Assembly: GCA_016214955.1 (NCBI GenBank)
Contig: JACRMN010000012.1
Location: forward strand, 248,001 to 312,000
Length of the DNA: 64,000 bases
Direction of reading: 5' to 3'
Origin: Deltaproteobacteria bacterium
GTDB taxonomy: Bacteria > Myxococcota > Myxococcia > Myxococcales > Anaeromyxobacteraceae
How positions within the stretch are numbered: position 1 is the stretch's first letter; every line of letters begins with the position of its first letter. Below, piece by piece: positions 5,039-19,700 of the stretch. The notes beneath the pieces were generated by a model that saw nothing but the letters and a program-made list of their open reading frames with translations, was not told where the DNA came from and made no database searches. A program made the position numbers and the translations under genes.

Positions 5039-6394
5039 ATGGTCCGGCTCGGCCTTCGGGCGCGCCTCGCCGAGGTCTCCTGGCGCGACCTCCTCGCCAC
5101 CCTGCTCCTCTTCGCGCTGCTCCTCGGCGGCCTGGCCTGGGCCGCGGTCCGGCTGGTGCGGCCGGCGGCGCCGCGGGCCATCACCCTCTCCACCGGCCCG
5201 GAGGGCTCGGCCTTCCAGCGCGCCGCCGAGCGGTACGCCAAGGCCTTCGCGGCCCACGGGGTGACGCTCCGGCTCCGCCCCTCCAACGGCTCGCTGGAGA
5301 ACCTGCAGCGGCTCGCCGACCCCGGGTCCGACGTCGAGCTGGGCTTCGTGCAGGTGGGCGTGAAGCTGCCGGAGGCGAAGCCGGACGATCCCGGGCGCCG
5401 CGAGCTGGTCTCGCTGGGCACCATCTTCCGCCAGCCGCTCTACGTCCTGACGCGCGGGAAGGCGCCGCCCGATCGGCTCTCGGCGCTGGCCGGCAAGCGC
5501 ATCGTCGTCGGGCCGGAGGGGAGCGGCACGCGGGTGCTGGCGGCCCGGCTCCTCAAGGCCAACGGCATCGAGCCCGGCGGCGCCACCTCCTTCCTCGACC
5601 TCGACGACGAGGAGGTGGGCCCGGCCCTGCAGCAGGGGCGCATCGACGCCGCCTTCCTGATGAGCGACTCGGCCTCGCCGCGCGTCATCCGGGCGCTCCT
5701 CCAGCTCCCCGAGGTGCAGGTGCTGCGGCTGGCGCAGCTCGACGCCTACCTGCGCCGCTTCCAGGACCTCGACCGCGTGGTCATCCCCATGGGCGCCTTC
5801 GACCTGGCGAAGAACCTGCCCCCCGCCGACCTGGACCTCGTCGGCGCCACGGTGGAGATGGTGTCCCACGCCAACCTCCACCCGGCCATCTCCGACCTCC
5901 TCATCGAGACCATGCGCCAGGTGCACGCCCGGCCCACCCTGCTGCAGCGCAGCGGCGAGTTCCCGGCGGCACGCGAGCACGAGCTGCCGCTCTCCGACGA
6001 CGCCCGCCGCTACTACGACTCCGGCAAGCGCTGGCTCTACCGGCTCCTGCCCTTCTGGGCGGCCAGCCTCGCCGACCGGTTCCTGGTGGCGCTGGTGCCG
6101 CTGGCGCTGCTCACCATCCCGGTGCTGCGCACGCTCCCCGGCTTCTACCGCTGGCGCATCCGGCAGCGGCTCTACCGGATCTACGGCTCGCTGCTGGAGC
6201 TGGAGCGGGACGTGCGCACCCACGGCCCGGACGAGCGGGCGGGGCTGCTCGAGCGCCTCGACGCCATCGAGGAGCGGGCCGACCAGCTCCGGCTGCCGGT
6301 CTCCTTCGCCGACCAGCTCTACGTGCTCCGCGAGCACGTGCAGCTCGTCCGCCGCCGGCTCTCCGCGCACGCCGCCGAGGCGCGCACCGCCTGA
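5039..6394 (+). CDS. TAXI-family TRAP-type solute-binding protein, membrane anchored, orphan
   Basis: The ATG at 5039 is preferred over an in-frame GTG at 5021, giving 451 residues. The N-terminal segment LLATLLLFALLLGGLAW is a signal anchor. It precedes a TAXI-type periplasmic binding fold (ITLSTGPEGSAFQRAAERY, then RIVVGPEGSGTRVLAARLL). A second hydrophobic stretch (LVALVPLALLTIPVL) near residue 355 and a charged, coiled-coil-prone tail depart from the usual single-domain binding protein. No DctM/DctQ-type permease gene is nearby. It lies 48 bp behind hcrB, so a role in taking up an aromatic or organic acid is possible but inferred. Alternatively the protein senses its ligand rather than transporting it. 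Confidence 0.75.
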   Translation: MVRLGLRARLAEVSWRDLLATLLLFALLLGGLAWAAVRLVRPAAPRAITLSTGPEGSAFQRAAERYAKAFAAHGVTLRLRPSNGSLENLQRLADPGSDVELGFVQVGVKLPEAKPDDPGRRELVSLGTIFRQPLYVLTRGKAPPDRLSALAGKRIVVGPEGSGTRVLAARLLKANGIEPGGATSFLDLDDEEVGPALQQGRIDAAFLMSDSASPRVIRALLQLPEVQVLRLAQLDAYLRRFQDLDRVVIPMGAFDLAKNLPPADLDLVGATVEMVSHANLHPAISDLLIETMRQVHARPTLLQRSGEFPAAREHELPLSDDARRYYDSGKRWLYRLLPFWAASLADRFLVALVPLALLTIPVLRTLPGFYRWRIRQRLYRIYGSLLELERDVRTHGPDERAGLLERLDAIEERADQLRLPVSFADQLYVLREHVQLVRRRLSAHAAEARTA

Positions 6395-6820
6395 ACGGGC
6401 GGGCCGCGATCACCGCGGGGGGGCAGAGGGAGGCAGAGCGGGCGGAGTGCCGCGGGCAGAGGGGGCAGAGGAGGGCGGGCAGAGTGCCGGACAGAGGAGG
6501 GGGGCAGAGGGGGGCAGAGTGCCGGACAGAGGCAGAGTGCCGGACATGAACCACAGCGAAGACGGAGGGCAGAGGAGGGCAGAGTGCCGGACATGAACCA
6601 CAGCGAAGACGGGGAGCTTCGCGGGGCTGGTTGATGTTGTTCGTCCCTGGATGTTGCCAGAGACGGCACGAAGAGGGCTCGAAACGCCGGCAGAACTCAG
6701 GCGCGAAGCGAAAGGGCCGACCCTTGGGGCCGGGCGCGTCGCGGTGGCCAGCCGGGTCGGTCGAAGAACGCTCCCCGGCAGCGCCCTGCGGATCGCGAGA
6801 TGGCTCGCGGCTGGCCGAGG
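6395..6820. repeat. Intergenic REP-like array with core GTGCCGGACA, left flank of the split transposase
   Basis: This 426-bp gap holds no convincing gene. GTGCCGGACA occurs at 6484-6493, 6519-6528, 6537-6546 and 6584-6593, embedded in G/A-rich GGCAGAG runs. A 47-bp unit that includes ACATGAACCACAGCGAAGAC is present twice (starting near 6531 and 6578). The same core appears in reverse orientation beyond the other half of the transposase (16624-16720) and again at 25054-25180. From about 6630 to 6820 nothing recognisable remains. Confidence 0.7.
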
Positions 6821-7346
6821 TCAGGCTCTTGCGACGGTTGCTCGTCTGGGCGGCGAGAGGCCGCAGAACCGGAGACGCAGGGCGACCCAGCGCTCTTCGC
6901 CAATGAACGGCGCCTCGACGAGGTCCCACCGGCGTGTCATCAGGGACTCCACCAGTGGTACCGCGAACAGGTGCAGGTAGGCCTTGCGCCGCTCGGCCCA
7001 GGTCCGACCGAGCGCCAGGTACTCCGGTGCATCGGTGACGAGGTCGTCCGGCTTCCCGTAGGCGTAGTGGCAGTGGCTCGACCACTTCCAGTCGCTGGCT
7101 CTTGAGACGACTCCGGCCCGGACGGGGTTCAGGTCGCCGTATCGCATGACGGCGAGCTGGTGCCGGCCGTCCTGGATGCGGGGGGAGCGCAGGCGCTCCA
7201 TGACGACCTGTCCGCGGCCGCTGGTCCGCCGGTTGTACCAATGGGCGAAGCCCCAGTTGACGACCTTCCAGAAGGAGCTGAAGGCAGCCTGGCCCTGGAT
7301 GGAGCGGCAGACGAGGTGCGGGTGGGAGCCCATGAGGCAGTAGGAC
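6821..7346 (-). pseudogene. REP-associated tyrosine transposase (Y1/IS200-like), 3' part of a gene split by an insertion
   Basis: The minus-strand frame encodes the catalytic and C-terminal part of a single-strand transposase. The HUH-type metal motif is HPH in YCLMGSHPHLVC. The tyrosine-containing segment is MRYGDLNPVRAGVV, followed by the usual DWKWSSH block. The first third of the protein is missing here and lies 9 kb away at 16402-16565. Joining the two pieces at the shared GA/TC dinucleotide gives 690 bp in frame, or 229 residues, the normal size for the family. The host gene is therefore disrupted. The frame continues for a few codons into the inserted element, but those residues are not transposase-like. 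Confidence 0.8.
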
Positions 7347-7367
7347 GAGACGTTGACAATATACCTA
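7347..7367. other. Left attachment junction (attL-like) of the integrative element
   Basis: Host sequence ends in GTAGGAC followed by a candidate crossover dinucleotide GA (7347-7348). The element then shows GACAATATACCTA at 7355-7367. The exact reverse complement, TAGGTATATTGTC, sits at the other end (16380-16392). Paired inverted arms around a short core are what a large serine integrase attP site looks like when it is split by integration. The dinucleotide is inferred because it restores the transposase frame; another in-frame choice is possible. Confidence 0.65.
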
Positions 7368-7381
7368 CGCCGGGACACCAT
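7353..7381 (+). promoter_or_regulatory. Possible integrase promoter at the left end of the element
   Basis: A perfect TTGACA (7353-7358) overlaps the attachment arm. Seventeen bases later a weak -10 match, CACCAT, lies just upstream of the integrase ATG at 7389. Any transcript would be nearly leaderless, so the promoter may act mainly in the excised circle. This is weak evidence. Confidence 0.25.
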
Positions 7382-7388
7382 CCGGGCC

Positions 7389-8813
7389 ATGACGCCCGCC
7401 AAGACCCCGGCCGCCCCCCGCTACGTCGAGCTCGTCCGCGTCTCCGGCGCCTCCCAGGCTGCCAAGGACACCCCCGCCGACCAACGGGCCGCCCTCGAGC
7501 GGCTGCGTGAGGCACGGCCGGGGGTTCTCGTCGAGCGGATCGAGGAGGGCGCGGGTGGCCTCTCCGGCGCGCTCCCCCTGGAGCAGCGCCCCGACCTGAA
7601 GCGGCTCCTGCGGCTGGCGAAGGACCGCGCCTTCGATGAGGTGCGGGTCCGGCACCTCGACAGGCTCACCCGCCACCCCGACATCCGGGAGCGCGCGGCC
7701 ATCTTCGGCGCCATCGCCGAGGCTGGCGCCTGCATCGTGGACGGGGCGGGCCACGCCATCGACCCGCTCTCCGAGGTGGGCGAGCTGGAGTGGACCTTCG
7801 GCTCCCTCATGGCGGCCCGGGAGCGCAAGCGCATCACCGAGCGCACCCTGGCGGCCCGCCGCCGCCTGGCCGGGCAGGGCAAGCTACAGGGGCGCCGCCC
7901 CTGGGCGCGGACCTGGGACGGCGAGCGCTGGGGCGTCGTCGAGGAGCAGGTGAAGACGTACAAGAGACTCTTCGCCGAGGTGCTCGCTGGTCGGTCCCTC
8001 CACGCCATTGCCAGCGGTCTCAACGCGGACGGCATCAGGCCGCCGGAGGCGAAGCAGTGGTCCGCCGGTGGGGTGGCGCGCCTGGTACACGCCCGGTCGG
8101 CCATCGGCGAGGTGTCCTGCTACGGGAACACGCTGCGCTGCCCCCCTATCGTGGACGCACCGACCTTCGAGAAGGCCAACAAGGCGATCACATGGAGCCG
8201 CGCCGGCCGGCCGCCGCTCGACGACTCGATCGCGCTCCTCCGCAAGGTCGCGGTCTGCGGCGCTTGCGGCGAGATCATGTACGTGGACACGGTGTCGAAG
8301 CGCAGCGGCCGGCGCGTCTACTACCGCTGCAAGCACAGCAAGACCGCCCGCTCCCAGGAGTGCCGGCGCTACTTCGCCGTCGGCGAGGTGGACGCCCTGG
8401 TCCGGGCCGAGCTTCTCCGGTGGCTTGCGGCCGACGTCGCGCCGAAGGCGGGGAAGAAGGCGAACCCGAAGGCGGCCCTGGCCCGCGCCAAGGCGCGGAT
8501 CAAGGAGCTCGACGCGGAGGAGCGCCGGCTGCTGCGGGTGGGCCGGCGCGCCAGCGCGGCGAACCTGGCGGCGGTGCTCGCCGAGCTCTCCCAGGAGCGC
8601 GAGGAGGCGCAGCGCGACCTAGAGGCCGCGCGGCTGGCGGCGCGGCCCGGCCCGGCGCCCCTCGACGCTGCCAGGCGGGAGGCCCTGGTCCGGCGGGCCC
8701 GGAGCGCCTCGGGCGCGGAGCTGCGGGCCCTGGTGTGTGCCATCCTGCGGCCGGGCGAGGTTAGGATCTCCCCGGGGCCGCGGGTCCAGATCCGAGCCCT
8801 CGGGCCGCGCTAG
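7389..8813 (+). CDS. Large serine recombinase (site-specific integrase)
   Basis: The start at 7389 (MTPAKTPAAPRYVELVRVSG) gives 474 residues. The N-terminal resolvase fold has the nucleophile Ser19 in RVSGASQ and the conserved VRHLDRLTRHP helix. A recombinase domain covers the middle, with LHAIASGLNADGI and WSAGGVARLVHARSAIGE. It is followed by a zinc ribbon (CGACGEIMY ... YYRCKHS ... SQEC) and a Lys/Ala/Glu-rich coiled-coil segment, the layout of phiC31/Bxb1-type integrases. It sits at the extreme left end of the element and reads inward. It very likely catalyses integration at the RAYT site; excision usually needs a directionality factor, and one of the small downstream genes is a candidate. 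Confidence 0.93.
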   Translation: MTPAKTPAAPRYVELVRVSGASQAAKDTPADQRAALERLREARPGVLVERIEEGAGGLSGALPLEQRPDLKRLLRLAKDRAFDEVRVRHLDRLTRHPDIRERAAIFGAIAEAGACIVDGAGHAIDPLSEVGELEWTFGSLMAARERKRITERTLAARRRLAGQGKLQGRRPWARTWDGERWGVVEEQVKTYKRLFAEVLAGRSLHAIASGLNADGIRPPEAKQWSAGGVARLVHARSAIGEVSCYGNTLRCPPIVDAPTFEKANKAITWSRAGRPPLDDSIALLRKVAVCGACGEIMYVDTVSKRSGRRVYYRCKHSKTARSQECRRYFAVGEVDALVRAELLRWLAADVAPKAGKKANPKAALARAKARIKELDAEERRLLRVGRRASAANLAAVLAELSQEREEAQRDLEAARLAARPGPAPLDAARREALVRRARSASGAELRALVCAILRPGEVRISPGPRVQIRALGPR

Positions 8814-8827
8814 TGAGGGGGCGAGCC

Positions 8828-9391
8828 ATGGAATCCTCATCGCTGGACGATCGGGTTCGCTTTCTCAGGGCGATCGAGCGAGCGGCCCCCCAGGTGTTCG
8901 CCGAGCTTCGGGCCCTCGGCGCCGGCGCCACACACGCGGGGGTGGCCAGGTGGGCGGCCCGCTGGAACCTCGATGGGCCAGGCCTCGAATGGCTCCGCGC
9001 CGAGGCGTTGCAGGCGGCGCGAAAGGGCTTCGTCGGTGCACCGGCGATCGCTGACTTCGTGCTCACCCACGACCTGGAGCTCAGCCTCTCCTGGGAGCCG
9101 GCCGAGTCCGGGGAGACGCGGGCCCAGTTCCTGGCGCGAGCACGACGCGAGCTTGAGGCCTACGCCGACGAGGTACAGGACTGGGCTCGCGAGAACGCGC
9201 CGAGCGCACGGCGGGCGGAGCGGACGACCGGACAGGCCGAGGCCGGCGCCGCGCGCTGGGACCTCCTGGTGAGCCGGCTGGTGCTGGGCAGCACCTTCCA
9301 GGCCATCGGCGAGGAGATCGGGATCTCCTGGCAGGGGGCACGCGAGCACGTCCGCCGCCTGGCAGCCCGCCTCGGCGTGGCGCTTCCCTAA
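8828..9391 (+). CDS. Unknown protein with C-terminal helix-turn-helix
   Basis: The ATG at 8828 follows GAGGGGGCGAGCC and gives 187 residues. An in-frame GTG at 8813, inside the integrase stop, is an alternative. The first 150 residues are rich in Ala, Arg and Glu with no recognised domain. The C-terminus (TFQAIGEEIGISWQGAREHV) reads as a sigma-70 region 4 or LuxR-like helix-turn-helix. The position right behind the integrase suggests a regulator or recombination directionality role. That is inference; there is no family assignment. Confidence 0.65.
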   Translation: MESSSLDDRVRFLRAIERAAPQVFAELRALGAGATHAGVARWAARWNLDGPGLEWLRAEALQAARKGFVGAPAIADFVLTHDLELSLSWEPAESGETRAQFLARARRELEAYADEVQDWARENAPSARRAERTTGQAEAGAARWDLLVSRLVLGSTFQAIGEEIGISWQGAREHVRRLAARLGVALP

Positions 9392-9444
9392 CCGCACGGG
9401 CACAACCTAGGTCGGCGGACGTAGCTTGTCGCGCGGCCGGCGCC

Positions 9445-9657
9445 ATGCCGGCGATCTTGCGTGGCATGACGCTGCCAGACAGCACATCCCCACCCCTCGA
9501 CGCCGCCACCCTCCGGCGCCTCTCCGTCGAGGCCGAAGTCGATCCCAGGACCATCCTCCGCGTCCTCAAGGGCCTGCCAGTCCGTGGCCTGCCCCGCTAC
9601 AGGGCCCGCCGGGTCTTGCTAGGCGCCGGCTTCCTCCAGCCCGAGGCCAAGCCGTGA
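9445..9657 (+). CDS. Small putative DNA-binding protein
   Basis: The frame codes for 70 residues from 9445, or 63 from the in-frame ATG at 9466. The segment LRRLSVEAEVDPRTILRVLK resembles the first helix-turn-helix of LacI/MerR-type excisionase folds and is followed by a basic stretch (RGLPRYRARRVL). The stop overlaps the GTG of the next frame (GTGA). A directionality factor or Cro-like repressor would fit this position. Confidence 0.5.
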   Translation: MPAILRGMTLPDSTSPPLDAATLRRLSVEAEVDPRTILRVLKGLPVRGLPRYRARRVLLGAGFLQPEAKP

Positions 9658-9818
9658 GCCGCCTCGCCGCGAAGGTGGTGGTGGCGGTGGACGCGACATT
9701 CGGCCCCGAGGCGGCTGCCGCCGCGCTCCGATGGCTCGAGGGACTGCCGGCGGAGCAGCAGCGGCCGCGCCGCCGCCCACAGCTTCGGAACGTGTCCCCT
9801 CCCGAGCCGAAGCCGTGA
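9654..9818 (+). CDS. Short hypothetical protein, translationally coupled
   Basis: GTG at 9654 overlaps the preceding stop (GTGA) and opens a 54-residue frame (SRLAAKVVVAVDATFG at the start). It is Ala- and Arg-rich with a Pro/Arg tail, and no domain was recognised. The overlapping arrangement on both sides is the main support. Confidence 0.4.
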   Translation: MSRLAAKVVVAVDATFGPEAAAAALRWLEGLPAEQQRPRRRPQLRNVSPPEPKP

Positions 9819-9898
9819 GCGTCCTGCTGATGGTGCTGGTGGCGGTTCTCTCCACGGCGGCGCTGGTGGCGCCGGCGCTCCTCTCGCGGAGGCAGTGA
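9815..9898 (+). CDS. Tiny hydrophobic peptide, 27 residues
   Basis: GTG at 9815 again overlaps the previous stop. The peptide is almost entirely hydrophobic (LLMVLVAVLSTAALVAPALL) with a basic end (SRRQ), so it would be a single membrane helix. Small membrane peptides are common in phage-like elements, but so short a frame could be chance. Confidence 0.3.
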   Translation: MSVLLMVLVAVLSTAALVAPALLSRRQ

Positions 9899-9900
9899 CC

Positions 9901-10326
9901 ATGAGCGACAACGACACCCCGGTCGCGATTTTGGCGGCGACCGCTTTCACCTTCAGCGGGACGGAGACCCCGGTCCCCGTCATCGCCGTCGCCGACGTGC
10001 TGCTGGCGGCCGCTCGCCCCCACCTGTCGGAGCGCGACGTGGCCGTTGTGCTGGCCGTGGAGCTGGCGGGCGCCGAGTGCAAGCCCTGGCCCGGCGTGGA
10101 GCAGATCGACGGCAGCACCTGTCGGGTCACCAGCGCCCGGCTGGGCGAGCTGGTGGTGCAGGTGGTGGATCTCAAGTTCAGCGGCAGGCCGCTGCGCGTG
10201 CTGGCGGTGCTGCCCGCGGTGGCGTGGGCCGCCTACGAGGGCACCGGGTTCGCCCTGCGGCGCCTGGTGCGGATCGACGTGGCCGCCTGGAACCAGGCGC
10301 GGCTCGCCCGGCGGGCCCGAGCATGA
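9901..10326 (+). CDS. Hypothetical protein of the element
   Basis: The ATG at 9901 lies just behind the preceding stop and gives 141 residues. The protein is mostly beta-prone, with repeated Val-rich strands (ELVVQVVDLKF, LRVLAVLPAVAW) and few charged residues. It has no signal peptide and no recognised family. It overlaps the following tiny frame (ATGA). Confidence 0.55.
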   Translation: MSDNDTPVAILAATAFTFSGTETPVPVIAVADVLLAAARPHLSERDVAVVLAVELAGAECKPWPGVEQIDGSTCRVTSARLGELVVQVVDLKFSGRPLRVLAVLPAVAWAAYEGTGFALRRLVRIDVAAWNQARLARRARA

Positions 10327-10358
10327 AGCACTCCACGACAGGGAGGGCGACATCATGA
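10323..10358 (+). CDS. Possible 11-residue coupling or leader peptide
   Basis: The frame MKHSTTGRATS begins inside the upstream stop (ATGA) and ends inside the start of the replication-type gene (ATGA). The next gene also has its own GGGAGGG ribosome-binding site, so this frame may only be incidental. It is recorded because both ends overlap exactly. Confidence 0.2.
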   Translation: MKHSTTGRATS

Positions 10359-11347
10359 GCAGCGAGCCGCAGCCGGGCATCTACCGCAAGGTCGCGACCC
10401 GGGTCTGGCAGGACGCGAAGTTCAGGGCGCTGACGCCGCTGGCGCCGAGCGGCGCGGCGCTGTGGCTGTACCTGCTGACCGGCGAGGTGACGACGCAGCT
10501 TCCCGGCCTGGTGCGAGCCGGGGAGGCGGCGCTGGCCGAGGCGCTGGGCTGGCCCCTGGAGGAGCTGCGGCGCTGTTGGGCGGAGATCGAGGCGCAGAGC
10601 ATGGCGACGGCCGACTGGCCGGCCCGCCTGGTGTGGATCCCGAACGCCATCCGCTACAACCAGCCCCAGAGCCCGAACGTGGTGCGCTCCTGGGGCCGGC
10701 CCTGGGCCGAGATCCCGGAGTGCACCCTCAAGGACGCCGCCCGCCGCGTGCTGGCGCAGCAGATGGCGGAGCGCGGCGGTGCCTTCCTGGCAGCCTTCAA
10801 GGAGGCCTGTCCACCTGCTTCCCGAAAGCCTTCCGGAAAGGCTTCCCGAAAGCCTTCGGGCAAGCCTTTCGGGAAGCCATCGCCGAATCAGGATCAGGAG
10901 CAGGAACAGGAGCAGGAGCAGGAAGAAACCTTTGGCGCGGAGCTGCCGCCTGCCGGCGGCACTGCCGCGCCGGCCCCCCAGCCGGCTTCGCCGGTGGTGG
11001 TCACCATCCCCTGCGTCGGCAACGGGCCCAAGACCTACGACGTCACCGAGGAGTTGGTGTCCAAGTGGAAGCCGGTCTTCCCAGGTGTCGACGTGCGCGG
11101 CGAGGTGCTGCGGGCAGCCGCGTGGGCGGACGCCAACCCGGCGCGCCGCAAGACGGCGCGAGGCTGCCCAGCGTTCTTGACCCGATGGCTCGCGAAGGCC
11201 CAGGACAGCGGGCGCGGCAACGGCAGCCTGGCGCCGGCGCGCTACGAGAGAGTCCTCACCAGGGACGGCGGCGTCCGGCTGGAGCCGGTCGGCCGGGGCT
11301 TCCTGGAGCCCGCCGCGATGAAGATCATCCGCAAGGAGGACTTGTGA
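10355..11347 (+). CDS. Phage replication initiation (replisome organiser)-like protein
   Basis: The ATG at 10355 follows AGGGAGGGCGACATC and gives 330 residues. The N-terminal 150 residues look like the winged-helix domain of phage replication proteins: a short primary-structure element, TPLAPSGAALWLYLLTG, then LPGLVRAGEAALAEALGW and LVWIPNAIRYNQPQSP. A low-complexity linker of Lys/Pro/Ser and Gln/Glu repeats separates it from a C-terminal domain (LVSKWKPVFPGVDVRGEVL). The DNA encoding the linker carries direct and inverted repeats (see 10817-10878), as in lambda O where the origin lies inside the initiator gene. It probably starts replication of the excised element. Confidence 0.65.
   Translation: MSSEPQPGIYRKVATRVWQDAKFRALTPLAPSGAALWLYLLTGEVTTQLPGLVRAGEAALAEALGWPLEELRRCWAEIEAQSMATADWPARLVWIPNAIRYNQPQSPNVVRSWGRPWAEIPECTLKDAARRVLAQQMAERGGAFLAAFKEACPPASRKPSGKASRKPSGKPFGKPSPNQDQEQEQEQEQEETFGAELPPAGGTAAPAPQPASPVVVTIPCVGNGPKTYDVTEELVSKWKPVFPGVDVRGEVLRAAAWADANPARRKTARGCPAFLTRWLAKAQDSGRGNGSLAPARYERVLTRDGGVRLEPVGRGFLEPAAMKIIRKEDL
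10817..10878. repeat. Direct plus inverted repeat cluster inside the replication gene (candidate origin)
   Basis: GCTTCCCGAAAGCCTT occurs at 10817-10832 and again at 10841-10856. The 17-bp arm at 10840-10856 is mirrored by AAGCCTTTCGGGAAGCC at 10862-10878 with one mismatch and a 5-bp loop. Iteron-like direct repeats with a strong hairpin in the linker-coding part of an initiator gene suggest an origin. Simple selection on a Lys/Pro/Ser linker is the alternative. Confidence 0.5.
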
Positions 11348-11739
11348 CGCCGGCCGGCACCCCGCGCACGGCGCAGGCCCACCCGCAGGCGCTCGCCTCC
11401 GCCATCGAGGTGGGGTGGCCTCCCCGCCCCGTGCGCGGCCAGGCGGCCAAGGACGGCGGCGTGGGGGTGGGCGCCGGTGGTGGAGGCATCACCGAGGGTG
11501 AGGGGGGCCGCCGGTATCATGTTCACGTCGAGTGCGACCACCGCAGCCCTCCCCGTCCATTGTCGCGGGCACCGAAGCAAAACCGGCATGGCCGGGCCAA
11601 GGCGGGCCGGTCCTGCACCTGCCGGCCACCTGCGCCGGCGCGGCCGGGCGCCCGGCACGACCTGCGTCGGCCGGGCGGGCACCGGGCGCGACCTGAGACC
11701 ACGCGGCCGGTAGCGGCCGGCACCTGCACGGAGGGCTGA
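11344..11739 (+). CDS. Doubtful hypothetical protein, Pro/Arg/Gly-rich
   Basis: A GTG overlapping the previous stop (GTGA) opens a 131-residue frame. The composition is low-complexity (Gly-, Pro-, Arg- and His-rich, with CDHRSPPRP and SCTCRPP), and third-position bias is weak from about 11500. It fills the space before the terminase gene. If it is not a gene, 11348-11743 is a non-coding stretch whose GC-rich repeats (CCGGGCG-type) might serve as a packaging or control site. Confidence 0.25.
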   Translation: MTPAGTPRTAQAHPQALASAIEVGWPPRPVRGQAAKDGGVGVGAGGGGITEGEGGRRYHVHVECDHRSPPRPLSRAPKQNRHGRAKAGRSCTCRPPAPARPGARHDLRRPGGHRARPETTRPVAAGTCTEG

Positions 11740-11743
11740 CGAC

Positions 11744-12223
11744 ATGGGCGGGCCAGGATCGGGCGGGCACAACCGGAAGTCGGACGCGGCGAAGCGGCTG
11801 GCGGGCACCTACCGCGCGTCGAGAGCGCGCCCCACCGCCAGCGCGCTGCCGGGGCTCCCGGTGGTGGCCGTCCCGCCGCCGCCGGCCGGGCTGCCGGCCT
11901 GGGAGGCGGAGGAGTGGGAGACGTTGGCGGCGGAGGTGGACGATGCCGGCACCTTCACCGCCGCCGACCTGGGGGCGTTCCAGGCTCTGCACCGGGCCGT
12001 GGTGATGCTGCGCTGCGGGCTGCGCCGGGTGAAGGGGCGGGCGGCGTTCGACTTCCGCGAGTTGGTGGCGGCGCGCCGCCTGGTCGAGCAGCTACGCGGC
12101 GACCTGCTCCTCCCCGGGCCGATGGAGCGGCTCGCGCGGCGGCTGGCGCAGGAGCCGGCCCCGGGGACTGAGGCGCCCGGCGACCCGCTGGCCGGGTTCG
12201 GGCCGGCCAAGAAGCTGCATTGA
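11744..12223 (+). CDS. Phage terminase small subunit, P27 family
   Basis: This 159-residue protein begins MGGPGSGGHNRKSDAAKRL, the characteristic basic Gly-rich start of P27-type small terminases. A central helical region (WETLAAEVDDAGTFTAADLG and FRELVAARRLVEQL) and a Pro-rich tail follow. Small terminases recognise pac or cos DNA and recruit the large terminase. None is encoded here, so the protein would have to work with a helper phage's large subunit, as in phage satellites. The next gene is the capsid protein, 245 bp downstream. Confidence 0.85.
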   Translation: MGGPGSGGHNRKSDAAKRLAGTYRASRARPTASALPGLPVVAVPPPPAGLPAWEAEEWETLAAEVDDAGTFTAADLGAFQALHRAVVMLRCGLRRVKGRAAFDFRELVAARRLVEQLRGDLLLPGPMERLARRLAQEPAPGTEAPGDPLAGFGPAKKLH

Positions 12224-12468
12224 ACACTGTCGGGGCGCTCGTGGACTCCACGCACGAACCCGCTACGCTGGAACCCCGGCGGCCGCGCTGCCCTGGCGCC
12301 GCCCTCTCGGCTAGCCCGAGAGACCTCAACCCACCGGGCGAGCCCCGGGTTGCCCGCAGGGATGCGCCGCCTAGCGCGCGCGTGTGCCGCGGCTCCACTG
12401 CCAGGACTCCACCACCGTGAGCACGGGCGTCTGAGCCCTGGCGCGACACGTTGCACCTGAGGAAAGCC
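12224..12468. other. Gap with GC-rich hairpins between small terminase and capsid genes
   Basis: No gene is apparent. A perfect 7-bp stem CTCTCGG/CCGAGAG with a 5-nt loop lies at 12304-12322, and a second C/G-rich stem follows near 12334-12350. There is no U-tract. The region could be a terminator, a control element or a packaging site. Confidence 0.35.
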
Positions 12469-13734
12469 ATGATCGACACGCAGCAGATGAGGGACCGGAT
12501 GCTGGCGCTGAACGAGGAGGGCGGGCAGATCCTGGCCGCCGCAGAGGCCGCGGGCAACTCGCTGAGCAGCCAGCAGCGCCAGCGCCTGGACGCCATCCAC
12601 GACGAGTTCAACACCCTGGAGCAGCAGGTGGCCGCGGCCGACAGGAGCCGGATCCTGGCCACGCCCCAGCCGCTGCCGCCCGGCGTGCGGGACGGGCAGG
12701 TGCCGCCCAGCCGCCGCGCCAGCGCCGGCCACAGCGGCAGCGCCATCCTGGCCGGCGGTGCCATCGGGCAGGACCAGCGAGCCGTGAAGGCCCTCGCCGA
12801 CTTCGCCCGCCGCGGGATCCCCTTCCAGAGCAGCATGTCGATCGGGAGCGACCCGGACGGCGGCTACTTGGTCCCGGTGGAGATCGACCGCGACATGCAG
12901 ACCGTGGCCGCCGGCTTCTCGCCGCTGCTCCCACTCGCCAAGAACTACTTCGGGGTGACCGACGGCTTCCGGCCGGTCGTGGTCTCCACTCTCCCGGGCA
13001 GCACCTGGAAGGCGGAGGGTGACACGCGCTCCGTGACCGCCTCGCCGGGGCTGACGCAGATCGTGCCCCAGCGCGGTGGCGTGGCCGCGGTGGTGCAGGC
13101 GTCGCAGTGGGTGTTGCAGGACTCCGATCCAGTGGCCTACGACGTCATCGTCAGGGGCCTGGGCATGCAGAACGGCGCGGCCATCGGCGCGGCGATCATC
13201 AGCGGTGCCGCCGGCCAGCCCGCGCCCAAGGGCCTCACCGCCCAGACCACCGCTGCCACGGCAGACGGCTCGCGCGCCTTCGGGACCGTGGAGCACATCG
13301 CGACCGGCGGCGCCACCACCGCGCCCAGCCTCGACAACTGCCTGACTGCCCTCAGCCGGTTGCACCCGTTCTACCAGGCGGGCGCTGCGTGGCTCATGTC
13401 CCCCAGCGCGTGGGCCGCGCTCCAGGGGCAGAAGTCGAGCGGGGGTGGCGACTTCATGTGGCAGCCGGACCTCAACGCCAAGGAGCCGCCGCGGCTGTTC
13501 GGGAAGCCCGTGCACATCGACCCCAACCTCCCGGCGGCCACGACCGCCGGCGCGCTCAGCGTGTGGCTGGGCGACTGGCAGCGAGCTTACGCGGTGTGCC
13601 ACTACGGCTCTCCGATCCTGATCCGCGACGACGTGACCGTGAAGGGCCAGGTGCTGATCTACTCGGAGCGGCGCGTGGGCGGAAACCTGGTCGACTCCGC
13701 CGCCTGCAAGGCGATCAAGACCGCCACCTCGTAG
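12469..13734 (+). CDS. HK97-type phage major capsid protein
   Basis: The ATG at 12469 follows GAGGAAAGCC and gives 421 residues; a TTG at 12451 is an alternative. The N-terminal 60 residues (MRDRMLALNEEGGQILAAAE onward) are a helical delta-domain/scaffold segment. From about residue 125 the HK97 fold is recognisable: GSDPDGGYLVPVEI, LPGSTWKAEGDTRSVT, the Q..WVLQDSDP strand and AWLMSPSAWAAL. The C-terminal strands (AYAVCHYGSPILIRDDVTVK) end in the usual G-loop-type region. No protease, portal or large terminase gene accompanies it. Capsid genes are normally surrounded by those partners, so its solitary presence is the oddest point of the element. Confidence 0.9.
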   Translation: MIDTQQMRDRMLALNEEGGQILAAAEAAGNSLSSQQRQRLDAIHDEFNTLEQQVAAADRSRILATPQPLPPGVRDGQVPPSRRASAGHSGSAILAGGAIGQDQRAVKALADFARRGIPFQSSMSIGSDPDGGYLVPVEIDRDMQTVAAGFSPLLPLAKNYFGVTDGFRPVVVSTLPGSTWKAEGDTRSVTASPGLTQIVPQRGGVAAVVQASQWVLQDSDPVAYDVIVRGLGMQNGAAIGAAIISGAAGQPAPKGLTAQTTAATADGSRAFGTVEHIATGGATTAPSLDNCLTALSRLHPFYQAGAAWLMSPSAWAALQGQKSSGGGDFMWQPDLNAKEPPRLFGKPVHIDPNLPAATTAGALSVWLGDWQRAYAVCHYGSPILIRDDVTVKGQVLIYSERRVGGNLVDSAACKAIKTATS

Positions 13735-13748
13735 CAGGTCAGGGGAGG

Positions 13749-13898
13749 CTGCACTGGTGGTGGAGGAGGCTAACCGGGGACTGTCTTGGGCCCGGGAATG
13801 GCTGCGCACCGCGAGGACGCCAGCCCAGAGCGCGGGCTCTCTGCCCCGCCCCTCGGGCGCTGATGCGGGACCTCCTCCCGCCGCCACCACCAGTGCAG
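13749..13898. ncRNA. Candidate structured RNA or long hairpin after the capsid gene
   Basis: CTGCACTGGTGGTGG at 13749-13763 is perfectly complementary to CCACCACCAGTGCAG at 13884-13898. The pairing extends inward through GAGGAGG/CCTCCTC with a small bulge. Inside is a smaller stem (AGAGC-GCGG-GCTCT). The 150-nt unit is non-coding and lies between the capsid gene and a convergent gene. It could be a small RNA, a bidirectional terminator or a packaging signal. Confidence 0.45.
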
Positions 13899-13932
13899 TA
13901 CCCCACCGGCGCGCAGCAGCACCCGGGTGACG

Positions 13933-14478
13933 CTAGGGCCGCTTGAGCAACGGCGGTGGCTCGGCCGCCGCCGGCGCATTCTCGTGAACCGGTGCAGGTG
14001 GCGGCAGCGGAGCAACGATCTGCACTTGGTTCAGGTAGATGTTGAAGTTGTTGACCGCCTTCTCGCTTTCCCGATCTTTCAGGCGGGTGGCGCAGGTGTT
14101 TGCCAGTACCAGGACCGCGGTGAGCAGCGCGATGTTCTCCTTGGTGAAGGCGACCCGTAGGAGATCCCATATCGCGCGTGTCTCGGGCCTAACCACGACA
14201 GCATCGAAGGTGACGCTGAGGTTCAGGGTTTCCACCAACGACGCGTGGAACACCGCTGGGGGCGTCGCGGTGATCCCGATCTCCCCGGCCGACGCGATTC
14301 CGGTGGCAGACTCCAGGCGCAGCGTTGCCGCCCTGAACACCTCACGGACCTCCTGCGGCGGGAGTTTGTCCAATTCGGCGAGCGCGGCGGCCAGGAGCGC
14401 CTTGAGGTCGCCGCCGCACCCTGGGCACTTGTCGGCGTCGAACTCCCTACCGCAAGCCGGGCAGGTCACTGTGGGCAT
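13933..14478 (-). CDS. Zinc-ribbon protein with a hydrophobic segment, unknown function
   Basis: Starting at 14478 the protein has 181 residues; an ATG at 14499 would add seven. The N-terminus is a zinc ribbon (CPACGREFDADKCPGCGG). The middle is acidic and beta-prone. A hydrophobic helix (IALLTAVLVLANTCA) lies near residue 135, before a Pro-rich tail (APLPPPAPVHENAPA). No family was recognised. It is the first of two minus-strand genes in the right half of the element, whose base composition is less GC-biased. Confidence 0.6.
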   Translation of the reverse strand: MPTVTCPACGREFDADKCPGCGGDLKALLAAALAELDKLPPQEVREVFRAATLRLESATGIASAGEIGITATPPAVFHASLVETLNLSVTFDAVVVRPETRAIWDLLRVAFTKENIALLTAVLVLANTCATRLKDRESEKAVNNFNIYLNQVQIVAPLPPPAPVHENAPAAAEPPPLLKRP

Positions 14479-14525
14479 GGGCGTGGATGGTACTCGCATC
14501 CCACGCGCGGTGGAACCCGCGCAGG

Positions 14526-14801
14526 CTACTCGCGCCGCAGCGCCGCCGCGGCCACCGCCCGGTGCAGGTCGGCGGTCAGCGACAGCAGCGCCCGCACCTC
14601 GCGGCGGTACTCCGTGCCGTGCCCGCTGTGCAGCAGGATCCGCCGCACGGTGGCCAGCCGCTCCTCCAGCGCCATGAGCCGCACCTGGCCGGGCGTGGGC
14701 TCCACCTCCGCGTCGGAGCGCCAGGGGTGCCGCAGCTTCTCCACCAGCGGGGGCCAGGCGCTACCGTCGAGGCAGTGGGCGGGGCCAAGGCCGTTGTCCA
14801 T
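14526..14801 (-). CDS. Small helical hypothetical protein
   Basis: From the ATG at 14801 this encodes 91 residues; the frame is open to 14876. The second half is strongly helical (VRLMALEERLATVRRILL, EYRREVRALLSLTADLHRAV), suggesting a short coiled coil. No family was recognised. It lies 27 bp upstream of the zinc-ribbon gene on the same strand, so the two may be co-transcribed. Confidence 0.5.
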   Translation of the reverse strand: MDNGLGPAHCLDGSAWPPLVEKLRHPWRSDAEVEPTPGQVRLMALEERLATVRRILLHSGHGTEYRREVRALLSLTADLHRAVAAAALRRE

Positions 14802-14975
14802 GAGGTGCAACGGTAGCGGAGCGGGTCGCGGGCGGTGATGGCTCGCACCCATGGTGACAGGCGCCTCGCGCCCCACTACGCTGGTGATGCCGGCGGCGGG
14901 GCTGTCCCGATGTCGCCTCGCTGCCGGTGCCGCACCCCGGACCAGCGGTCAGATCCCCCGCCTACACTGGCAGGC

Positions 14976-15803
14976 ATGGACCTACTTGCTTGGTGGAAGA
15001 CGCTCAAAGAAGTGGTCGTAGTCGCTGGGGTAGTCCTCGGCGCCGGGTCGCTCTACTTCGCCGCCAGAACCTACTGGCGCAACGGCCTCATCGAAGAGGA
15101 CAGGTGGCGCTCGCACCTCGCGTTGCAGGCCGTCGCCATGGACTCCAGCGTCGCCATCAGCGAGGCCGTTCACGCCGGAGACTCAATGACCGTCGAGGTT
15201 CTCCGCCCCCGGCCTCCCGCAACGACTGGGCAGCGTGCCCCGTCCCGGCCCCCTGCCAAGACCCCGGCCACGAGCAAGAAGGAGCCTTCGGGGAATGCAA
15301 CGGTCGCTCTCACGCCGATCGCAGCGGCAGGGAGCGTGGGCAGAGAGGCCGCGCCTCAAGAGAAGCACCGGCCCAGCGGTTCGGCCGCGGCCCGAGAAGC
15401 GCCGCCCGCGGGCACAACCTTCGCGATCGAGTCGGTCACCGCGACGGGAAGCGTGGCGGGTGTTGCTTCGTCCAGAGAGACCATCCACGTGATTGTTCGC
15501 AACGCGAGCTTCCGCCCGGCGGCGATCGTCTGTGTCTTCCTACGTGACCACGCCGGGCGCCCGGTAGGTCCCGACTGGTGGAAGAACGTGGGCCGGCTGC
15601 ACCTGCCGCTCCCGATCCCGCCTTGGCAGATCGCAACCCTTGCCATCGATGTTGACGGAACCGACTTCGAGCAGGCGGTCGAGCTTGTGGTGGGCGACGG
15701 GGACGACGGGGAGGTGGCCATCCCCTTGCGTGAGAGGGCCCGCTGGCGTGAGTGGATCGACTTCCAGCGCCCGCCCTCCGCGAGCAAGTGCATGCACCAG
15801 TAG
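14976..15803 (+). CDS. Hypothetical single-span membrane protein of the element
   Basis: The ATG at 14976 is chosen because the upstream part of the frame is low-complexity; it gives 275 residues. A membrane helix (VVVVAGVVLGAGSLYFAA) occupies residues 12-30. A disordered Pro/Ala/Ser/Lys linker runs to about residue 135, then a beta-rich domain (IHVIVRNASFRPAAIVCVFL, IATLAIDVDGTDFEQAVEL). The layout suggests an anchored, outward-facing domain. No homologue was recognised; phage exclusion or entry interference are guesses. Confidence 0.6.
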   Translation: MDLLAWWKTLKEVVVVAGVVLGAGSLYFAARTYWRNGLIEEDRWRSHLALQAVAMDSSVAISEAVHAGDSMTVEVLRPRPPATTGQRAPSRPPAKTPATSKKEPSGNATVALTPIAAAGSVGREAAPQEKHRPSGSAAAREAPPAGTTFAIESVTATGSVAGVASSRETIHVIVRNASFRPAAIVCVFLRDHAGRPVGPDWWKNVGRLHLPLPIPPWQIATLAIDVDGTDFEQAVELVVGDGDDGEVAIPLRERARWREWIDFQRPPSASKCMHQ

Positions 15804-15881
15804 TCGCCCCTGGCTGCACTGGGGATGCCCTTCTTCAGTTCTGTCACCGTCGGTAGAACCGTAGGATTCTAGGGAGGAGCC

Positions 15882-16253
15882 ATGAACGCATTCGGGATCG
15901 CCTTTGTGGTCGTAGCGGTCGCTGCCAGCATCTTCTACGGCGCCTTCGCGCACGACATCCACGTGTGGCCCAACAAAGCAGACCAGCCGCGGCCCATGCG
16001 GCTTGCGTATCGGGTTCACCAGTTCTGGTTCAACTTCGTGGGCTCGGTTTCTGGCTGGCTGGCACTCTTGAAGGTCGGGGACCTGGTCGATCGAGGCGAG
16101 TTCGCCACCCGCTGGGGCGACCTGGGCCTGTCTCTGGTTGCGCTGCTGGGCATCACCGGCTACCTGCCCCTCACGCTCTACACGTTCGCCGCCTATGGCG
16201 GGGAGAAGCTGCGCCAGAAGGCAAATGAAGCTGCGGCTGGCGGGGGCAAGTAG
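15882..16253 (+). CDS. Hypothetical multi-span membrane protein of the element
   Basis: The start at 15882 follows GGGAGGAGCC. The 123-residue protein has hydrophobic helices at residues 3-23 (FGIAFVVVAVAASIFYGAFA), about 48-66 and about 83-105, with short charged loops and a basic C-terminus (KLRQKANEAAAGGGK). No family was recognised. It is the last gene before the right attachment junction. Cargo genes at the edges of satellites often encode anti-phage or exclusion proteins, but nothing in the sequence proves this. Confidence 0.6.
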   Translation: MNAFGIAFVVVAVAASIFYGAFAHDIHVWPNKADQPRPMRLAYRVHQFWFNFVGSVSGWLALLKVGDLVDRGEFATRWGDLGLSLVALLGITGYLPLTLYTFAAYGGEKLRQKANEAAAGGGK

Positions 16254-16379
16254 GCAGCCGCCTGGCGCCGCGCCGGCGCAGCCGCTTGCCCACCGCTGCG
16301 CGATCGCCAACCGACGGGGCCGAAGGGCGGGTTCGGGCTGGATCATGGCCCTGGCGCGCCTGGTGCGTGGTGTTTCTCA

Positions 16380-16403
16380 TAGGTATATTGTCTAGTAATA
16401 TGA
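16380..16403. other. Right attachment junction (attR-like) of the integrative element
   Basis: TAGGTATATTGTC at 16380-16392 is the reverse complement of the left arm. The candidate core dinucleotide GA lies at 16402-16403, followed by host transposase sequence GTGGACCTCGATTCC. Joining both element ends gives a dyad with 13-bp arms about 17 bp apart, centred near the core. Confidence 0.65.
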
Positions 16404-16565
16404 GTGGACCTCGATTCCGAACTTCTCCTTGTACTTCCGGACCAGTGAGAGGAAGTGGCGGCGGGCCTCATCGGAGTCGAGGACGAAGGCGAAGCCGTGG
16501 CTGCGCCAGGTGCAGTGGTTCGTGGAGCCTTCCTCGATGAGGAGGGAGCGACGGACGCGGGCCAT
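16402..16565 (-). pseudogene. REP-associated tyrosine transposase, 5' part of the split gene
   Basis: From the ATG at 16565 the minus strand reads MARVRRSLLIEEGSTNHCTW and on to KYKEKFGIEVH, the typical N-terminal third of a Y1 transposase. Beyond the core it runs into the element and stops within a few codons. Its continuation (CLMGSHPHLV) is at 6821-7346. An upstream in-frame ATG at 16583 would add six residues. Confidence 0.78.
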
Positions 16566-16623
16566 CGGACTGGCAGTGAGCAAGCCTCAGGCCAACGCGC
16601 GCGCAGCTCCCTGCGAGACTTGA

Positions 16624-16720
16624 TGTCCGGCACCCGATTCCCGCGCGCTCATGTCCGGCACGCCGCCCCCCGACACGCGCGCTCATGTCCGGCACGCCGC
16701 CCCCCGCTCATGTCCGGCAC
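16624..16720. repeat. REP-like array with core TGTCCGGCAC, right flank of the split transposase
   Basis: TGTCCGGCAC occurs at 16624, 16652, 16686 and 16711, mostly within a GCGCTCATGTCCGGCACGCCG unit. It is the reverse complement of the core on the other side of the transposase, so the arrays face each other across the gene. A run of 13 C residues follows at 16750-16762. The rest of 16566-16782 shows no gene. Confidence 0.7.
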
Positions 16721-16782
16721 GCCGCCCGCCGCCCCCGCCGCCCCCGCTGCCCCCCCCCCCCCGGCTGCCCCCGCCGGCCGGC

Positions 16783-19700
16783 TCACGGTGCCCGCACGAA
16801 GACCGCCTCTGGCGCGAAGACCGAGTCGGACCAGAACACGCGCCCGCTGGGCTCGAGGGCCGGGCTGGTCTTGGGCGAGACGTAGCCGGTGACCAGCGTC
16901 GGCGAGCCGTCGAAGCCCGCCACCAGCCAGATCTGCGCGCCCATGGGGCTCCCCTCGGCCACATAGGCGACGTTCCGCCCGGCCAGGGCGATGTCGTAGG
17001 GCGAGAAGTAGCCATCGGCGAGCTTGCGCCCGCGGTCGTCGCCGCTGCCGAAGCGGCCGTCGGGGCCGGCGTGGACGAGGTAGAGCGCCGGCGGGGAGAA
17101 CTCGGCGAGGAGCATCAGGCTCCCCGACACCCGGAAGGCCCGGGCGTCGTGCACCGCCAGCCCGGCGCGCGGCGAGCCCGCGGGGTGGAGCAGGGTGGTG
17201 GTGGTGTCGTCGGCGGTGCCGAACTGGCCGTCGCTTCCGGCGTCGCGGACGCAGATGTCGAGGGTGATGCCGTGGCAGGAGTAGAAGGCCTGCGCGGCGG
17301 TGATGCCGGCGGCGTAGGCCCAGCCCTGGTCGATGCCCAGGGCGTCGACCACGCCGTCAGCGGGGAGCGTCGCCAGGGTTCCGCCACGCGGCTCGAGGAT
17401 GCGGTAGCGGTAGGCGTTGCCCCCCATGTTCTCGACGGCGATGCCCTTCCCGCCGCCGAGCGCCAGGGAGGTGAAGCCGGTCCCCGTGCCGGTGAAGAGG
17501 GTCACCGGCGCCGGTGCACCAGCGGTGAACCAGGTGCCCGAGGTGCCGGGCTGGCGCAGCACCAGCCGGTTGCCCTCGGCGGTGAGCAGGTTCTGGCCCA
17601 GGGCGTCGAAGAGGCCGGTGTGGCTGAACCCGGGGAGGTCGCCGCCGGCCAGGGTGCGGGCCCGGATCTGGTTGCCGCTGGTGCGGTAGAGGAGCTGTCC
17701 GGTCCCGTCGGCGGCCAGCGACATCCCGGACGACAGGCCCGCGGCCGGGGTCACCTCCCAGCGCAGGTAGGAGAGGTCGACCGCCCGGATGTTGCTCGCC
17801 TCCCCGAAGACCGCGTACCCGGCGGAGAGCGAGGCGGTGCCCCAGCTTCCGGCGGTGGGGTGGACGCGCTCCAGGGTGTCGTCGCCGGTTCCCCAGCTGC
17901 CGTCGGGGCCCGCCCACCAGTGAGCGATGGTGTTGAGCGAGGTGGTCCGGAGCAGGGCGATGACGTGGGTCCCGTCCACGGCCACCGACGACTCGGCGGT
18001 GGTGGTGTGGGCGGGCACGCCCCAGTCGGCCGGGACGTCGACGAACGCGGCGCCATCGTCGCCGGCGGCCTCGAAGGCGTCGTTGGCGCCCGAGCTCCGC
18101 AGCCAGAGCCGCTGGGGGTCGGCTCCGGCAGGCTCCCACCAGGCCACCTGGCGGCCGTCGGGCGAGAGGGCGGCGGTGGTGGCCGCGGCCGGCAGGTTCC
18201 AGGTGGTCACGCCGCTGGCGTAGCCGCCCCCGGCGTTGGCGTTGTAGATGCGCCAGCCGAAGGTGGAGTTGCAGCCGGCGCCGCAATCTGCGTACTTCAC
18301 CAACGTGCCGCGCTCGCCGCTGGTGATGGTCTCGATGTAGTTGAGCCGGGCGACGCGGGTGACCACGTCGTCGCCGCTGCCGAAGGTGCGGTCCGCGCCG
18401 GCCTCCCGGGCGTAGAGGTCGGCGACGGCGTTGCCGTAGTCGTCCTCCCACCAGGTGGCGAGCTCGCCCACGCCCGAGACGCCACGCACGAAGAAGCCGG
18501 CCGCGGCCGTACGGAAGGTGGTGGCGGTACCCTGCCAGGCGCCGGCGGCGCTGCAGAAGTGGCCGTCGGCCACCGCCGGCCGGAGCATCACGCCGCTGCC
18601 ATCGGCCACCAGGACGAGGCCGGGGCCGGCGGGGACGATGCCGCGGCCGTAGCCGGAGGCGACCGAGCCGGGGACGTCGCAGCGCAGGTCGGCGGCCTGG
18701 GCGCGCCGGTCCGAGCCGAGCTCGAGGATGACGCCGTGCGGGTTGCCGGCGCCGGGGATCCAGGAGTCGAAGGTGACCAGGCTGCCGCGCACCACCGGGC
18801 TGCCGTCGAGGGCGACGCTCCCGGCGATGACGTCGCCCGAGGAGTCGGCCCGCACCTGCTGGCTCACGCCGGAGCCGACGTTGCCGGCCAGGTCCACGGC
18901 CCGGAAGGCCACGTCGTTGGAGGAGCCCTCGCGCAGCGGCACCCGCACGCCGGTGAAGCGCGTGCCGTCGCAGAGCAGCCGGCGGTCGGTGAGGGCGCAG
19001 CCGCAGCCGGCGGCGCAGGGCGAGTAGACGCCGTCGGGGCGGCAGGCGGCCGCCGGGCAGAGGGGCTCGAAGCCGGCGCCGCCGTCGACCTCGATCCAGG
19101 CCACGCCCTCCCAGTCGACGACGCCGGACGGCCGGTCGGTGGAGGCGGTGTCGAGGAAGAAGTCCACCCAGGGGGCGCGCACCGTGACAAGCGTGGGGTC
19201 GAAGGAGGGCACGAAGCCGGGCGGGGTGGGGGCCACGAGGTCGCTGACGACGCCGCCCACGCCCAGCGAGGTCTCGGCACTGCGCGTCCCGGCGCGGTCC
19301 CAGCCGCGGGCGTAGAGGCAGGTGCGCTGGCCGGCGGCCAGGGAGAGGGCGAAGTTGGGCGAGGTGCCGGCCCAGGCGCAGCCGCCCGGCGCCGAGGGGT
19401 CGCAGGCCACCGTGGCCGCCTGGGAGACGGTGCAGATCTCGTAGCCGCCGAAGCCGGCGTCGGCGTCGGACCCGGAGAGGGTCACCGAGGTGGTGGTGGC
19501 GTCCACCACCGGGCGCGGGGTGCTGATGGTCGGCACCGGCGGCGCCACGCCGTCCTGGACCACCTGCGCCGAGGCCACCGGCCCGGCGTTGCCGGCCCAG
19601 TCGACGGCCCGCACCCAGAGCAGGTTGGTGGCGTTGGAGGCGAGTCCGGTGAAGGTGAGGCTGGCCTGCGGGGCGGCCACCAGGGTGGCGGCGCTCCAGT

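Follow-up and report, generated by a model that had tools for sequence, protein, structure and literature searches.

A 9,058-bp island in the genome of an Anaeromyxobacteraceae bacterium is probably an integrative phage satellite that brings its own small terminase subunit (TerS) and its own major capsid protein and borrows the rest of the particle from a helper phage, a reading drawn from its sequence and from analogy with known systems. In the usual classification, a satellite either takes over the heads of its helper or builds complete ones, and a recurrent island with TerS plus a capsid protein falls in between. Such an island would show a shell protein to be separable from portal and protease and still worth keeping, and it offers a route from capsid remodeling of the kind performed by Ccm, the capsid homologue of SaPIbov5, to capsid-forming satellites. 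It also extends satellites to the Anaeromyxobacter family, in which none has been described in the literature that we searched.

A precisely integrated island with two morphogenesis genes

The island lies within a 64,000-nt stretch of DNA, the whole of which we call the window (assembly GCA_016214955.1, contig JACRMN010000012.1, positions 248,001 to 312,000, forward strand). The host genome (G000; the window is on its contig C26) comprises 5.3 Mb in 30 contigs, in a 96%-complete assembly, and its family includes public Anaeromyxobacter MAGs. The element (7346 to 16403, plus strand; the 9,058 bp include one copy of a 2-bp core) interrupts exactly a RAYT/Y1-type transposase gene, and the host carries an intact, 94% identical paralogue of that gene on its contig C16. 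The C-terminal half of the interrupted gene forms the left flank (6821 to 7345, minus strand), with 144 of 145 nt identical to the paralogue up to the junction, and the N-terminal half forms the right flank (16402 to 16565, minus strand; 189 of 196 nt). Short repeated GTGCCGGACATG-type motifs, perhaps REP elements of the RAYT transposase, occur on both sides of the gene (6400 to 6670 and 16590 to 16790).

Where exactly does the island begin and end? The ends are fixed at 7346 and 16403 because, in both flanks, the alignment with the C16 paralogue stops at the same dinucleotide, which reads GA on the plus strand and TC on the minus. The left att junction (7344 to 7367) consists of the core GA at 7344–7345 and the arm GACAATATACCTA at 7355–7367; the right junction (16380 to 16403) has the arm TAGGTATATTGTC at 16380–16392 and the core GA at 16402–16403. 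The two arms form an exact 13-bp inverted repeat, 9 bp from the core on both sides, and no comparable inverted-repeat run exists at any other axis in the 64-kb window. A 2-bp core with inverted arms is, on the sequence, the layout expected for the attP of a large serine integrase, and the island encodes such a recombinase (7389 to 8813, plus strand; PF00239, PF07508, PF13408; phrog_95, E = 4.8e-58). Read from its junctions, the island integrated through its own serine integrase at precise att sites.

The recognizable morphogenesis genes of the island, as read from its sequence, are terS and an intact capsid gene. The ORF at 11744 to 12223 (plus strand) encodes a terminase small subunit of the P27/phrog_83 type (phrog_83, E = 2.6e-6). 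Its product is 37.6% identical over 85 aa (E = 1.3e-5) to the TerS of a sister island, which itself matches phrog_83 at 5e-9; one profile library (PHROG) and the sister island together make a good, if not iron-clad, case for this assignment. The protein has no Pfam or NCBIfam match, a fold search gave a moderate model with no significant structural match, and a search of phages with it returned nothing. The capsid gene (12469 to 13734, plus strand) encodes a 421-aa HK97-type major capsid protein (PF05065, 5.2e-38; TIGR01554, 1.2e-56, residues 12–417; phrog_10, 1.9e-46) with a helical, delta-like N-terminal region (helices at 4–27 and 34–64). ATG 12469 is a better start for it than the upstream TTG 12451 of the preliminary description, which was otherwise right to report a TerS of P27 type and a full-length capsid protein of HK97 type in a 9-kb island. 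An AlphaFold2 model, built from 37 aligned capsids of islands and phages, has the HK97 fold (pLDDT 84) and two long N-terminal helices like those of a delta domain. The nearest solved structures, both of them capsids that form small heads, are the capsid of the Rhodobacter capsulatus gene transfer agent (GTA; 6tb9, profile match 2.5e-64, fold match 4.3e-24) and that of the cf-PICI EcCI2, and the best full-length phage and plasmid matches likewise include cf-PICI-like elements. An IMG/VR and GTDB contig search with the single capsid sequence found nothing.

TerS selects DNA for the large terminase subunit (TerL), and HK97-type capsids require a portal and, as a rule, a protease. Does the island encode these partners in a form that escaped gene calling? 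Pfam and PHROG scans found no portal, TerL, or protease among the called proteins, and HMM searches for the three in all six-frame stop-to-stop ORFs of the element turned up nothing beyond the capsid. The seeds of these HMMs came from a prophage of the family and from two elements of cf-PICI-like type, and the HMMs were then enlarged on 80 IMG/VR capsid neighborhoods; with them, 72 loci yielded a portal and 56 a TerL. The protease HMM is weak (five loci at the stricter cut-off), so that the absence of a protease leans more on the Pfam and PHROG scans. These are the profile searches that the preliminary description had called for, and they bear out its statement that the element holds no other morphogenesis gene; the hidden TerL or portal that it had raised against itself was not found in any frame.

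Genome-wide, the host has no portal (phrog_12, PF04860) and no TerL (PF03354). As a positive control, PF03354 recovered all expected TerLs in two family prophage genomes (G016 and G004); phrog_2 missed TerL in genomes that possess it, and PF03354 is therefore the test relied on. The sole host match to phrog_2 (1.1e-4) was rejected, the protein being a UvrD-type helicase. The genome-wide absence of portal and TerL indicates that no helper resides in the 96%-complete host assembly, and this lack of a resident helper weighs against the satellite reading, in which dependence on a helper is presumed.

The remainder of the island includes a replication gene and several ORFs without family. After the integrase come, on the plus strand, a protein with a weak C-terminal helix-turn-helix (8813 to 9391; PF13412, E = 0.11, below the cut-off) that is possibly a regulator, a 70-aa ORF with weak coding support and no family (9445 to 9657), a 143-aa protein with a good coding signal and no Pfam, PHROG, or NCBIfam family (9895 to 10326), and a DnaD-like helicase loader or replication protein (10355 to 11347; phrog_1701, E = 1.6e-13). 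The 396 bp upstream of terS (11348 to 11743), in which no coding ORF was called, are a candidate pac/cos and origin site; no repeat stands out within them, and a search of the element for a packaging site found none. Beyond the capsid gene lie a 188-aa zinc-ribbon-like accessory protein (13933 to 14499, minus strand; weak zinc-ribbon matches), an ORF with no NCBIfam family (14526 to 14876, minus strand), an ORF with a hydrophobic N-terminus, a weak coding signal, and no defense family (14979 to 15803, plus strand), and a small putative membrane protein with no Pfam, NCBIfam, or defense family (15882 to 16253, plus strand). No Stl/AlpA-type regulator, primase, or excisionase was recognizable with Pfam, PHROG, or NCBIfam, and Rfam, tRNA, promoter, and defense scans of the element gave nothing useful. 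The integrase, DnaD-like, terS, and capsid genes are all open reading frames.

Capsid islands in related genomes

How widespread is this arrangement? A search of 24 family genomes, along the lines first suggested for this DNA, found five further capsid islands without portal or TerL, one of them in the host genome itself, and the TerS-plus-capsid arrangement recurs in at least five family genomes. It is present in G015, G012, and G022, and in G007 with a deleted TerS. Three sister islands are complete between tRNA-derived repeats (9.5, 9.9, and 16.4 kb) and carry neither portal nor TerL. The G015 island (L008; 9.5 kb, tRNA-Cys, 20-bp repeat) has chromosome on both sides and encodes a tyrosine integrase, a primase/RepA, TerS, and capsid. 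The G022 island (L109; 16.4 kb, tRNA-Pro, 50-bp repeat) encodes an integrase, a primase, TerS, and capsid in a single-contig chromosome, and no portal or TerL was found anywhere in that genome. The G012 island (L010), on an 8.6-kb contig, has an integrase, a DnaB-like gene, TerS, and capsid, and the G007 island (L009) has a primase, the deleted TerS, and capsid. The second island of the host genome (L107, positions 5978–15890 of G000:C21:59600-79500; 9.9 kb, tRNA-Met, 46-bp repeat) encodes an integrase, a RepA-like ATPase, an HNH protein, a capsid of HK97 type from a different lineage, and a protein of 487 aa in which a ClpP-like protease is fused to a tail-protein-like domain; no TerS, portal, or TerL was seen in it.

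TerS and capsid are all that the window island has in common with its sisters; its integrase and replication gene have no relation to theirs. The G015 and G022 islands possess AlpA/excisionase-like and primase genes, and the G015 and G007 islands have conserved DNA upstream of terS. TerS and capsid, the content that the window island has in common with the others, are what would be expected to be retained if the pair were the working unit. A capsid left solitary by chance was rejected as an explanation, since the arrangement recurs.

In the capsid tree, the capsids of the window, G015, G007, and G012 islands form one clade (support 95/99) apart from phage capsids, and those of G022 and L107 join a family prophage lineage. 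With four island capsids in a clade of their own and two from another prophage lineage, the tree places at least two origins of the capsid-island state, which was then inherited and, in the island-only clade, lasted over very large divergence; the capsid ORFs of that clade are intact at 26–38% identity. No full prophage with a capsid of the window clade was found in the family. These patterns make it possible, and we propose it tentatively, that the islands belong to a distinct, long-lived satellite class of the Anaeromyxobacter family, whose core is a TerS–capsid pair swapped as a unit between islands. Such a class, conjectural as it is, would combine unrelated integrases and replication modules with a helper's portal, protease, motor ATPase, and tail.

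Relation to known satellites

How does the island compare with known systems? It has what is expected of phage satellites in general: its own recombinase, precise ends, and packaging and assembly-interference genes without an autonomous virion set. A close known counterpart is SaPIbov5, whose Ccm is a lone capsid homologue that enters helper heads at the pentamers and yields T=4 shells (PMC8569155, PMC5052747). Ccm is the sole SaPIbov5 protein required for capsid size redirection and undergoes cleavage even though a protease gene is missing from SaPIbov5 (PMC8569155); it is unable to form capsids without the helper capsid protein and, expressed alone, blocks its helper (PMC5052747). The window island likewise encodes a lone capsid homologue, of HK97 fold and with helices in its N-terminal delta region, and no portal, TerL, or protease. 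Unlike SaPIbov5, which lacks TerS and relies on the cos site of its helper, it does carry TerS; SaPIbov5 also has a tyrosine-integrase SaPI organization and comes from Firmicutes, and its helper and function are experimentally proven, whereas those of the window island are presumed. The delta domain of Ccm is short (87 aa), that of the window capsid is not: 131 residues precede the core glycine, against a phage median of 126. A short delta domain was considered as a Ccm-like signature and dropped, as it was a weak trend across the islands (P = 0.04, n = 5, non-independent) that the window capsid does not follow. The unshortened region thus removes one possible hint as to whether the protein co-assembles with or replaces the helper capsid.

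The cf-PICIs (Pmp8, a Morganella element, EcCI2) also pair their own capsid with a P27-type TerS, and the best full-length phage and plasmid matches of the window capsid have the Pmp8/Morganella-type layout. However, cf-PICIs further encode portal, protease, connectors, HNH, and TerL (PMC10690885), all absent from the window island, which has only capsid and TerS of that complete head set. Classical PICIs (SaPI1, SaPIbov1) resemble it in having an integrase, a replication module, and a TerS that redirects the helper terminase, but they remodel capsids with CpmA/CpmB scaffolds rather than with a capsid protein, and their Stl/AlpA-type regulation and primase-rep module were not found in the window island. 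For mycobacterial elements with an integrase and a capsid gene, phiRv1/2 among them, candidate PICI status has been put forward on the strength of those two genes alone (PMC10654092). Of these, phiRv1 is alike in size (9.3 kb) and in its serine integrase (PMC10654092, PMC3986857), and phiRv1/phiRv2-like elements share the combination of an integrase and a major capsid gene with an incomplete virion set; they belong to another host phylum, and some encode a prohead protease, scaffold, portal, or terminase. The preliminary description had proposed a minimal PICI-type satellite and a notable variant of known elements. A capsid-plus-TerS satellite is indeed the best-supported reading, though PICI-type fits only loosely, given the serine integrase and the lack of an AlpA/Stl regulator and a primase. 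As for novelty, solitary capsid homologues are already known—Ccm is a published, experimentally solved precedent, joined by the mycobacterial candidates—and the new part is the TerS–capsid pair as a shared core.

Competing explanations and a possible mechanism

Could the island instead be what is left of a prophage that lost portal, protease, TerL, and tail, with capsid and TerS as decaying leftovers? Decay is visible in one relative, G007, whose TerS (L009, 3380–3480) has lost several hundred internal bases that are present in G015, leaving about 30 residues in frame; the wider decay in relatives that the preliminary description would have taken against its own reading did not appear. Between G015 and G007, dN/dS (NG86) is 0.71 for the capsid and 0.26 for the primase, and the capsid value reads as not strongly purifying in a method that is unreliable at the GC content of these genomes. 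Portal-less capsids in Myxococcaceae also point toward loss: many look like IS-riddled remnants with the protease still attached. Loci L111, L113, L115, L127, and L130, whose capsids belong to another subfamily and frequently lie next to transposases, could be remnants or form a separate class. (A phylum-wide count, 27 of 84 myxobacterial capsids without a portal within 15 kb, suggested that a third are solitary; we set it aside, since contig ends or IS-riddled remnants account for many of the Myxococcaceae cases.) A deletion remnant would, however, predict ragged content that varies by copy and full near relatives, whereas the islands are compact and convergent: five genomes show the same end state, their integrases and replication genes being unrelated, att ends are complete, sizes are alike (9.1, 9.5, and 9.9 kb), replication modules are retained, and the capsid ORFs of the island-only clade have stayed intact. 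The window island itself has precise ends, open key genes, and no full relative, and that it shares only TerS and capsid with other islands disfavors a chance-deleted prophage. We consider a remnant unlikely, slightly more so than the alternative in which the island, as a stripped cf-PICI, builds all of its head out of the capsid protein that it encodes, with portal, protease, TerL, and tail alone coming from the helper. The full-length capsid, with its delta-like N-terminus and complete modeled HK97 fold, would suit such a shell, as would its nearest structures and its cf-PICI-like best matches. Yet a foreign shell must fit a helper portal and protease with which capsids usually coevolve, cf-PICIs carry both genes themselves (PMC10690885), and Ccm formed no capsids without helper capsid protein (PMC5052747); whole-shell replacement is therefore also improbable, if the least so of the alternatives.

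Two further readings dispense with island transfer or with helpers. The capsid protein might co-assemble with the heads of incoming phages and ruin them, protecting the host; Ccm expressed alone does block its helper (PMC5052747), and several accessory ORFs follow the capsid gene. This would leave TerS, the integrase, and the replication protein unexplained, no known defense family is present in the island, and we give the idea little credence. Least plausible by far is a protein shell or GTA-like compartment unrelated to phage helpers. The capsid is closest in profile and fold to that of the R. capsulatus GTA, but that agent is a full tailed particle from a large cluster and needs portal, TerL, and tail genes, whereas the window island is mobile and has one capsid gene in a genome without portal or TerL; in a compartment, TerS and the mobility genes would be pointless.

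If the island is a helper-dependent satellite, it would excise and replicate upon infection by, or induction of, a tailed helper phage. Its TerS would partner the helper TerL and direct the packaging motor onto island DNA, while its capsid protein would join head assembly, either mixed with the helper capsid protein at the pentamers, as Ccm is, or as the whole shell. Ccm-like co-assembly seems the most likely of these routes, and complete shell replacement ranks second. The helper portal would nucleate the shell, a protease of the helper or of the host would trim it, and the resulting small heads would fit about 9–10 kb and exclude the helper genome, with tails and lysis supplied by the helper. 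We predict that a genome of 9–10 kb suits a T=3-like shell; the R. capsulatus GTA capsid derives from T=3 geometry (PMC7296036).

The same architecture also occurs beyond myxobacteria: an 8-kb IMG/VR contig of 50% GC (L040, IMGVR_UViG_3300036715_003087) has a capsid gene at its end, together with a primase-helicase and small ORFs, and lacks both portal and TerL. Small ORFs recur in the myxobacterial islands as well. A conserved CxxC protein of about 70 aa, absent from the window island, is found in three sister islands (L008, about 8140–8350; L009, 2840–3085; L010, 5284–5559), always between the replication gene and terS. Another small ORF, between TerS and capsid (L008, 9070–9327; L009, about 3440–3680), has a conserved AERLLRAGGFSRRQAR motif, and a 66-aa ORF before the L040 capsid contains AEKTLRNQGHSRSEA, which resembles it; the small ORF with this motif may function in capsid binding or scaffolding.
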